In this document: in pieces, positions 26,024 to 28,547 of the stretch | How positions within the stretch are numbered: the first letter of the stretch is position 1 | Layout of the letters: the number at the start of each line of letters is the position of its first letter | NCBI RefSeq assembly: GCF_017352095.1 | Contig: NZ_CP071463.1 | Location: 310,001-374,000 of the forward strand | DNA length: 64,000 nt | Reading direction: 5' to 3' | Source of the DNA: Natrinema longum | GTDB lineage: Archaea; Halobacteriota; Halobacteria; Halobacteriales; Natrialbaceae | Notes under the pieces: model-generated | Database searches by the model: none | What the model was told of the DNA's origin: nothing | What the model saw: the letters and a program-made list of their open reading frames with translations, nothing else | Made by a program: the position numbers and the translations under genes

Positions 26024-26040
26024 TTTTAGGCTGGCCAAAA
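26024..26040. promoter_or_regulatory. Second, imperfect iron-box-like palindrome
   Basis: TTTTAGGC-TG-GCCAAAA has the same arms as the main site with one base missing in the right arm. Its centre is 34 bp before that of the main box, about three helical turns, consistent with two repressor dimers on one face. Confidence 0.5.
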
Positions 26041-26058
26041 TCGGAACGCATTTGTATA

Positions 26059-26074
26059 TTTAGGCGAGCCTAAA
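26059..26074. promoter_or_regulatory. Iron-box-like operator (DtxR/SirR type)
   Basis: TTTAGGC-GA-GCCTAAA is a perfect 7+7 bp inverted repeat, 4 nt before the ATG of the DUF5059/halocyanin gene and overlapping its TATA element (GTATATTTAG). The TTAGGC...GCCTAA pattern is that of metal-dependent DtxR/IdeR family repressors, which in haloarchaea respond to iron or manganese. A repressor bound here would block transcription. The regulator gene is not in the window. Confidence 0.65.
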
Positions 26075-26078
26075 AATT

Positions 26079-28547
26079 ATGCAACGGACGCGACGCGCGT
26101 GGCTGAAGGGCAGCAGCGCAGCACTCGTGAGCCTCGGGCTCGCCGGGTGTTCCGAGACGACCGACGGAGGGGACGCCGAACCCGACTCGACCGAAGGCGA
26201 GGGGGCCCCGGAGTCGTCCGACGAGGAATCGACGATCGCCGAACCGATCGAGACGGCCGTCGCCGCCGAGTGGAACGCGATGCGGGCCCGCCTGTGGGAC
26301 GCACTCGCGGTGGGACGGGCCGGAGAGACCGAGGCCGGCGCTGCCGTCGCCGAGCACACGTTCTCTCGGTTCGAGACCGCTACCGGCGAGTACAACGCCC
26401 ACGAACTCCTCGAGGAGACCGACGAATCTCGCTACGAGGAGTTCGAGGAGGCCCTCGGCGAACTTCGGACGGAGGGGCTGGAGCGAGGAGACATCGGTCG
26501 CACACGGGAGGAGGCCGTCATCGGAGACGAGCAACTCCGCGAGGCCCAACGGGCCCTCGTCGGCGAGCCGGCGTCGCGCGCGTTCGATCTTCAGGCGTTC
26601 GGGACGACGGTCGCCGATACCGTCGTGCTCGCGTCGGCCGGGGCCTTCGACGCCGCCGAAACCGTCGCGACCGACGCACTCGGGCGGTTCGAGGAGGCGG
26701 CCGTCCACGATGCGATCGAGGAGACGGACGCCGACGTCTACGAGCGGTTCGAAAGCGCCATCGAGAGCCTCGTTACGGCCGCCGAAACCGAAGACGTGGA
26801 GGGCGTCCGCTCGAGTGCGAGCGACGCGCTCGCGGCGGCCGTCGACGGCGGCTACGCGCTCGCATCCACCGAGGCGGCGGGTGCCGGGCAGCTCGCCACG
26901 TATCAGGCCCGGGGCTGGGACGCCGCCGCACTCGCGGGCTTGGGCGGGCCGTCGACCGCGTTCGCTCACGCGGCCGCGTTGAACGTCTATCGAGCGCGGG
27001 CCCACGACGCGGCCTGGCTCTTCGATCGCGGGCACCCGGATGCGGCAGCACGGATCGCGGAGAACGTCTTCGCGCACTTCGAGGGCGCTCGCGCACACGA
27101 GGCCCTCGAGGAGGCGAGCGAAGACGCCTATCACCGGTTCGAGGAGGACGGTCTGGACGCGCTCGCGACCGCCATCGAGAACGACGACGCGGCGGGAGTC
27201 ACGAGCGCCGTCGAGACGATCGACGACGGGCTGGTGACCGGGATCGACGCCCTGGGGACCGGCGTCGAGCCCGCGTTGCTCGAGGCGGGCTTCTTCAAAG
27301 TCCGGATCGAGGACGCGCTGGAACGGTATCGGCTCGGCAAGAACGAGGTCGCCGCCGAAACCGCCCGCGGGCTGTTCGAGCGCTTCGAGTCCAACGAGGC
27401 CGACTTCCACGAGACGCTCGAGGAGACCGACGAATCGCTCTACGAGACCTTCGAAGACGAGCATCTGAACGGGATCATCGAGGCGTTCGAGAGCGGCGAC
27501 GACGCGGCCGTCGACGACCACGCGACCGGGATCCGCGATCGCCTCCTCGAGTTCGAGACGACCGCCGGAACGACCGCGCAGGTGAGCGCCGTCGAAAGCG
27601 GGTCCATGGCCGCCCGTGTGTTCGACGCCGGCGTCCTGGACGTCCTCGGGGAGTCCGCTCGCGCTGAAACCGTCGTTCGCGACGCGTTCGAGCACTTCGA
27701 GAGCGGCGCGGGCGGGTTCCACGAAGCGCTCGAGGACGCCGATCACGACCGCTACGAGTCCTTCGAGCGCGCGCTCGGCGACGCTCGAGGTGCTGCCGAG
27801 AACGACGGGTCCGTCCCGGAAGCGGCCCGAACGTTCGACGAGCAGGCGCTCGAGGCGACGTACACCGTCGTGGCGTCCGCCGGTGGCTCGTACGGGGAGG
27901 CCGCCGCGTCGATCATGCGGGACGTCTTCGCGGAGTTCGAAGAAGCGCGCGTCCACGAGCCCCTCGAGGAAGCCGACCACGAGATCTACGAGAGTTTCGA
28001 AGCGGCGCTCGAGGACTACATCGCCGCCCTCGAGTCGGGGTCGGGAGTTGACGGGGCCGCCGAAACGTTCGCCACGGCGACGTTGCGGGCGCAGTTCGCC
28101 GTCGCCGGCGCGCCCGATGCAGCGCCGGGCGACGACGGCACGACCGGTTCCGACGGGGAGGCCGACGACGAGCCCGACCTCGAGAGCGGGCCGAACGTCG
28201 TCGAGGGCGTTCCCGACGACGCCGACCACGTCGTCGACATGCAGGCCGTCGCGTTCGAACCGGCGGAACTCACCGTCGAGGAAGGTGAGACCGTCGCCTG
28301 GACGCACGCATCGGGCGAACCCCACTCGGTGTCGGCCTACGAGGACGGGATTCCGAGCGACGCAACCTACTGGGCGTCCGGTGGGTTCGAAAGCGAGACG
28401 GACGCCCGCGAGGGCTGGGAGAACGGCCAGGGTGCGGTCACGTCGGGAGAGTCGTACGTCCACACGTTCGAGACGACGGGTGAACACGAGTACGTCTGTA
28501 TCCCCCACGAGGCCGCCGGAATGGTCGGAACGATCATCGTTGAATGA
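26079..28547 (+). CDS. DUF5059 repeat lipoprotein with C-terminal halocyanin domain
   Basis: This 822-residue surface protein has a Tat-type signal (RRAWLKGSSAALVSLGL) with lipobox LAGC near residue 25, an acidic linker, then at least six related helical repeats, each with a pattern H-E-x-L-E-E-x-D-x-x-x-Y-x-x-F-E (for example ELLEETDESRYEEFEEAL, AIEETDADVYERFESAI, TLEETDESLYETFEDEH, PLEEADHEIYESFEAAL), and a C-terminal blue copper domain (about 715-822) with ligands in GEPHSV and YVCIPHEAAGM. Halocyanins carry electrons. With an iron-type operator directly upstream, a role in metal handling or electron transfer at the cell surface is likely, but the function of DUF5059 is unknown. Confidence 0.88.
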   Translation: MQRTRRAWLKGSSAALVSLGLAGCSETTDGGDAEPDSTEGEGAPESSDEESTIAEPIETAVAAEWNAMRARLWDALAVGRAGETEAGAAVAEHTFSRFETATGEYNAHELLEETDESRYEEFEEALGELRTEGLERGDIGRTREEAVIGDEQLREAQRALVGEPASRAFDLQAFGTTVADTVVLASAGAFDAAETVATDALGRFEEAAVHDAIEETDADVYERFESAIESLVTAAETEDVEGVRSSASDALAAAVDGGYALASTEAAGAGQLATYQARGWDAAALAGLGGPSTAFAHAAALNVYRARAHDAAWLFDRGHPDAAARIAENVFAHFEGARAHEALEEASEDAYHRFEEDGLDALATAIENDDAAGVTSAVETIDDGLVTGIDALGTGVEPALLEAGFFKVRIEDALERYRLGKNEVAAETARGLFERFESNEADFHETLEETDESLYETFEDEHLNGIIEAFESGDDAAVDDHATGIRDRLLEFETTAGTTAQVSAVESGSMAARVFDAGVLDVLGESARAETVVRDAFEHFESGAGGFHEALEDADHDRYESFERALGDARGAAENDGSVPEAARTFDEQALEATYTVVASAGGSYGEAAASIMRDVFAEFEEARVHEPLEEADHEIYESFEAALEDYIAALESGSGVDGAAETFATATLRAQFAVAGAPDAAPGDDGTTGSDGEADDEPDLESGPNVVEGVPDDADHVVDMQAVAFEPAELTVEEGETVAWTHASGEPHSVSAYEDGIPSDATYWASGGFESETDAREGWENGQGAVTSGESYVHTFETTGEHEYVCIPHEAAGMVGTIIVE

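Follow-up and report, generated by a model that had tools for sequence, protein, structure and literature searches.

In Natrinema longum, the gene of a DUF5059 surface protein is very probably under iron control, exerted through a DtxR-family repressor. Comparison of sequences demonstrates that a conserved, putative operator is common to the DUF5059 gene and to iron acquisition genes; this operator, and with it the apparent membership of the DUF5059 gene in the iron-starvation regulon, is strongly supported. We infer the identity of the regulator, its binding and its mechanism at the DUF5059 boxes.

The paired box and its conservation

The window, i.e. the whole 64-kb stretch of DNA that was analysed, contains two copies of the box. 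The proximal one, TTTAGGCGAGCCTAAA at 26059..26074 on the + strand, is a perfect palindrome (TTTAGGC-GA-GCCTAAA, core at -19). It is followed by an AATT spacer and by the ATG at 26079, i.e., the repeat ends 4 nt before the start codon, as the initial annotation had described. The imperfect copy that it had placed 34 bp upstream is also present. This distal box, TTTAGGCTGGCCAAAA at 26025..26040 (+), has a 14-mer core at 26026-26039 with one mismatch. Between the boxes, at 26041..26058 (+), lie a BRE-like CGGAA and the TATA-like TTTGTATA (-28 to -21); from these two elements, together with the corresponding columns in the orthologues, we infer that this region functions as the core promoter.

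At up to three mismatches, the two boxes are the sole matches in the window, where 0.39 would be expected. Two matches are also reached by 8 of 100 shuffles of the window; thus, on the evidence of the window alone, the box is no more than suggestive. This only mildly unusual count is what speaks for a palindrome that arose by chance or forms an RNA stem and has no part in regulation, a reading that we consider exceedingly improbable in view of the comparisons that follow. The exact 14-mer TTAGGCNNGCCTAA occurs at 7 sites in the whole genome and its reversed control at none. When two mismatches are allowed, the pattern turns up 44 times and its reversed control 164 times, and specificity is lost. 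The argument therefore rests on the exact sites and on the fixed position, and position weighs as much as the letters do.

Two sets of orthologues, with species overlapping between them, were compared. In the first, consisting of the loci fetched from a class-wide DUF5059 search of 292 haloarchaeal genomes, every DUF5059 gene with an intact start has the box at -14 to -22. In the second, 68 named DUF5059 loci fetched separately, the proximal box is found at -17 to -22 in 64 genes, and the four loci lacking it have starts that are missing, broken or wrongly called. The scan of other haloarchaeal DUF5059 genes that the initial annotation called for thus finds the box conserved. The flanks of the same 68 loci give an expected rate of 0.0008 per 13-position window, but a binomial p-value computed from it would be overstated, as the sequences are related. 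For the same reason, a better argument for conservation is the contrast with the flanks: among the 64 orthologues, columns upstream of the boxes hold about 0.1 bit each against 2 bits in the core box columns, the latter being partly fixed by the match criterion itself. This fixed position within otherwise unconserved DNA rules out a chance palindrome.

The distal box is likewise found 33-37 bp above the proximal one in 60 of the 64 orthologues (at most 3 mismatches). Between the two, the orthologues share a conserved CGAA and T/A-rich columns where BRE and TATA would be expected. The inner positions of the box change singly and not as compensating pairs (C/A 9 and T/G 10, against T/A 1). This pattern suits a pair of half-sites for a repressor but not a stem in RNA; the reading of the palindrome as an RNA hairpin is thereby ruled out. 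The shorter DUF5059 proteins of six genomes (L099-L104) are preceded by the box as well.

The box at iron-uptake and other genes

The box recurs in front of iron genes, a further point against a chance origin. In the window genome it occurs, with 0-2 mismatches, at -19 or -20 of Tat-lipoprotein substrate-binding genes in five loci (L047, L052, L053, L055 and L058; L053 holds two such genes, one with a broken frame), and in L053 also at -19 or -20 of a FecCD permease gene. By family, four of the substrate-binding proteins are Peripla_BP_2 matches and one is an SBP_bac_8 match, protein types that serve iron and siderophores. Several of the boxes in the genome are pairs spaced 34-36 bases apart. 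In L053 (3940-5037), a perfect box stands before an apparently broken substrate-binding gene, and at L052:6213 a box pair stands before a short degenerate frame.

Siderophore operons of other haloarchaea carry the box too: at least one copy lies upstream in all 15 loci examined, mostly as a pair. These boxes are found a few kilobases 5' of the IucA-type gene, i.e., near the operon start, and the distance to the first gene is resolved in part of the 15 loci. An earlier look had found boxes in 7 of 30 siderophore loci, a low count, as the operon starts lay mostly beyond the stretches examined. In Haloferax volcanii, the siderophore operon is transcribed as a single hexacistronic mRNA, and iron starvation induces it strongly (PMC7407949).

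Of the seven blue-copper genes found in the window genome, the DUF5059 gene is the only one with a box; the other six have none. General control of copper genes by the box is thus ruled out.

Haloarchaeal iron regulators of the DtxR family include Idr1 and Idr2 of Halobacterium and Idr, SirR and TroR of Haloferax. The arrangement described here resembles their regulons in its palindromic TTAGG..CCTAA operator adjoining the start codon, in the sharing of the box between iron ABC transporter genes and siderophore operons, and in the presence of DtxR-family genes, of which the window genome has three clear ones. DtxR-family members elsewhere respond to Mn, and with three such genes at hand the box might answer another metal through a different paralogue, the DUF5059 protein then serving that metal. 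We regard this as very unlikely, since the boxes stand before genes for transporters of the iron-siderophore type and for siderophore synthesis, the second of which responds to iron (PMC7407949).

One DtxR-family gene may itself be connected to the box. In L046:3493-3637 (G000:C1 681992), a box with one mismatch precedes, by 144 bases, a gene for a 128-aa DtxR-family protein, of which Pfam matches the N-terminal domain only; autoregulation of this gene via the box is possible. At L049:3306-3355 (G000:C1 1781305-1781354), two identical one-mismatch boxes, 36 bp apart, are followed by a two-domain gene (DUF7551, DUF7552) and then by a DUF7260 gene, and these could possibly be further members of the iron regulon. 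Five boxes are clustered with surface-glycan genes within 10 kb of L055 (3683-13640; G000:C1 2618182-2628139). There they precede genes for a Gluconate_2-dh3-like Tat lipoprotein, a glycosyltransferase, an SBP_bac_8 protein, a reversibly glycosylated polypeptide-like protein and an LPG_synthase_TM protein.

Published expression data from H. volcanii, in which iron was not the variable, show the DUF5059 gene HVO_1228 moving together with iron genes. It rises by 4.2 log2 in cells with lowered splicing endonuclease, accompanied by iuc/siderophore genes and iron-binding proteins (PMC7714728), whereas a double mutant of cas1 and fen1 shows a decrease of 2.92 log2 that iucA and further siderophore genes share (PMC9051519). 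In the proteome study of H. volcanii under iron starvation (PMC11349517), the main text does not mention HVO_1228. Orthologue conservation, the boxes of iron genes and the co-movement of HVO_1228 together give strong support to the iron-box-like operator that had been proposed over the DUF5059 gene. In the accessible literature, no discussion of DUF5059 as a DtxR-regulon target was found, and published regulon tables may already list it.

We suggest the following scheme. When iron is plentiful, a metal-loaded DtxR-family repressor would occupy the two palindromes flanking TATA and BRE, and initiation would be blocked. As iron falls, the repressor would come off the boxes and the DUF5059 gene would be expressed alongside the iron-siderophore ABC transporters. 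With a box on either side of its TATA region, the DUF5059 gene offers a clear view of the layout of an archaeal iron promoter.

Helical repeats and the copper domain

The gene (26079..28547, +) encodes a Tat lipoprotein of 822 aa, with a Tat signal and a lipobox (R5, R6, G23 and C24 are conserved). The features read from it at the outset, i.e., the signal of an 822-residue Tat lipoprotein, six related helical repeats and a blue copper domain, are all borne out. It is a full-length member of DUF5059 (PF16502; hcpE or hcpG in Haloferax) with the same domain order and the C-terminal blue-copper domain; what is added here to the family as annotated is the iron box and a repeated E-H-E-Y-E motif. 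Its closest named relative, from Natrinema ejinorense, is 95% identical.

The helical DUF5059 domain covers residues 60-683 (26256..28127, +; E 6.4e-233) and matches the whole PF16502 profile (1-619 of 619; 775.5 bits against a cut-off of 25). Predicted alone, it has a pLDDT of 96. Profile comparison divides this region into six homologous repeats (E 1e-13 to 1e-22) that share the motif FE-(x4-9)-H-x3-E-x6-Y-x3-E. Among 49 sequences, the Glu, His, Glu, Tyr and Glu of the motif are invariant in five of the six repeats, all on the + strand: repeat 1 (E99 H108 E112 Y119 E123; 26370..26447), repeat 3 (E335 H340 E344 Y351 E355; 27078..27143), repeat 4 (E437 H444 E448 Y455 E459; 27384..27455), repeat 5 (E541 H548 E552 Y559 E563; 27696..27767) and repeat 6 (E621 H626 E630 Y637 E641; 27936..28001). 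Repeat 2 (26688..26753, +) is a relaxed copy of the same motif with lower conservation. The near-invariant residues of the helical part are enriched in His, Tyr and Glu and include no Ser or Thr; this enrichment suggests metal binding. Across 41 relatives, hits to the repeat are confined to DUF5059-type frames, six in each full protein and three in the short one.

The plastocyanin-like cupredoxin domain spans residues 719-822 (28233..28544, +; PF00127 E 1.6e-16). It superposes on plastocyanin 2plt with Z 15.2 and 1.0 A over 91 residues, and its four copper ligands, H749, C807, H810 and M815, are invariant in the 49 sequences. The cut-off of the halocyanin domain TIGR03102 (NCBIfam) is missed, at 38.7 bits against 93.8. 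Fold and ligands are those of halocyanin, plastocyanin and amicyanin, but the copper domain of DUF5059 is fused to a helical domain of 620 residues. The short forms of the family (L099-L104, from six genomes) have 497-514 aa and three repeats. In at least two of them (L099 and L104) the axial Met is replaced by His or Gln, so their copper site would differ.

Compared by fold, the helical part has no Foldseek match with an E-value of 0.001 or below, and VIA-align returns generic helix bundles only (PsbQ, a small metal-binding protein, cytochrome c', vinculin and imelysin; Z up to 12.4), which show neither a new fold nor kinship. Among known iron proteins, the helical region has no sequence match and no clear fold match.

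Possible roles in iron capture

We favour, at a little short of an even chance, the reading that DUF5059 is a surface protein in iron capture, under iron-starvation control, and that electrons pass between its copper domain and the iron it binds. Its parts differ in strength. The repeats are somewhat likely to bind iron or an iron compound; that the copper site alters the redox state of this iron and so aids uptake is a more tentative proposal. With the invariant Glu/His/Tyr sets and the intact copper site taken together, redox-coupled binding of iron is plausible, and the reductase or scavenging role put forward in the initial annotation can be surmised from them. The product would be exported by Tat and lipid-tethered on the outer face of the membrane, where the helical repeats would form a rod offering five or six Glu/His/Glu/Tyr/Glu sites for iron, most likely as Fe(III). 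The type-1 copper domain would swap electrons with the bound iron; the protein would thus take hold of the iron in one redox state and hand it on to an uptake system in the other.

This would resemble the working of EfeO in the ferrous iron system EfeUOB, without FTR1. In EfeO, a cupredoxin is linked to a helical domain that holds metal through His, Glu and Tyr ligands (PMC9174327). Both proteins are exported, combine a cupredoxin with a helical domain and appear to be under iron control, but the DUF5059 protein has the reversed domain order and six repeats instead of one domain, and the likeness serves as a working analogy only. By sequence, no M75/imelysin domain is found, as the helical region gives PF16502 and chance matches (E up to 10), and the window genome has no PF03239 match, i.e. 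no FTR1-type permease. Membership in the EfeO family thus fails. Structurally, imelysin appears among the generic bundles at Z 8.9 over 104 residues.

The main rival reading is that of an iron-sparing electron carrier, a membrane-bound copper protein that replaces haem or Fe-S carriers under iron limitation, with the helical repeats as a docking rod or spacer and no iron site. The type-1 copper site is intact and of the plastocyanin type, halocyanin is regarded as a one-electron carrier of haloarchaea (PMC8305020), and the box in front of the gene points to iron control. We nevertheless consider this reading unlikely: the six further blue-copper genes found lack the box, and the helical part, six times as large as the carrier, has invariant residues that are chiefly Glu, His, Tyr and Phe, unlike a neutral surface.

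His and Tyr, both among the motif residues, are usual ligands of haem. The His/Tyr/Glu sites might take haem or a ferric siderophore and pass it to the co-regulated ABC transporters, with copper aiding reductive release. The co-regulation with siderophore-type transporters is in favour of such a receptor, as is a modest co-occurrence with IucA/IucC: in the 292 genomes, DUF5059 and IucA/IucC are each present in 77 and share 32 (odds ratio 2.7, p 0.0008, a value that ignores the relatedness of the genomes). But the window genome has no IucA/IucC gene, so the link between DUF5059 and siderophore synthesis is not obligatory, and the DUF5059 protein has no sequence match to known haem or siderophore receptors. 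We judge this receptor role to be improbable.

DUF5059 is present in about a quarter of the haloarchaeal genomes of the class-wide search (77 of 292), and in a phylum sample it is found only within the order of the window genome. No gene neighbour is conserved across the 68 loci; the commonest flanking family occurs in 14 of them and is never adjacent. The operator is informative where the gene neighbours are not.

Returning to iron capture with a redox-active copper domain, it may tentatively be speculated that DUF5059 represents a separate archaeal class of surface iron capture, a lipid-anchored rod with five or six E-H-E-Y-E iron sites wired to a plastocyanin-like copper centre that alters the redox state of the iron, supporting iron uptake with no FTR1 and, as here, with no IucA/IucC-type siderophore of its own. 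The box itself is of a known kind. The combination of an iron-controlled surface protein, repeated Glu/His/Tyr sites and a type-1 copper domain was not found described in the accessible literature.

DUF5059, a family with no assigned function, thereby gains a testable role, and its operator ties the gene to iron starvation. If the repeats are indeed iron sites, this would be an archaeal copper-coupled surface iron system whose parts have no sequence relationship to EfeO, and it would bear on the iron supply of haloarchaea that lack siderophore synthesis.
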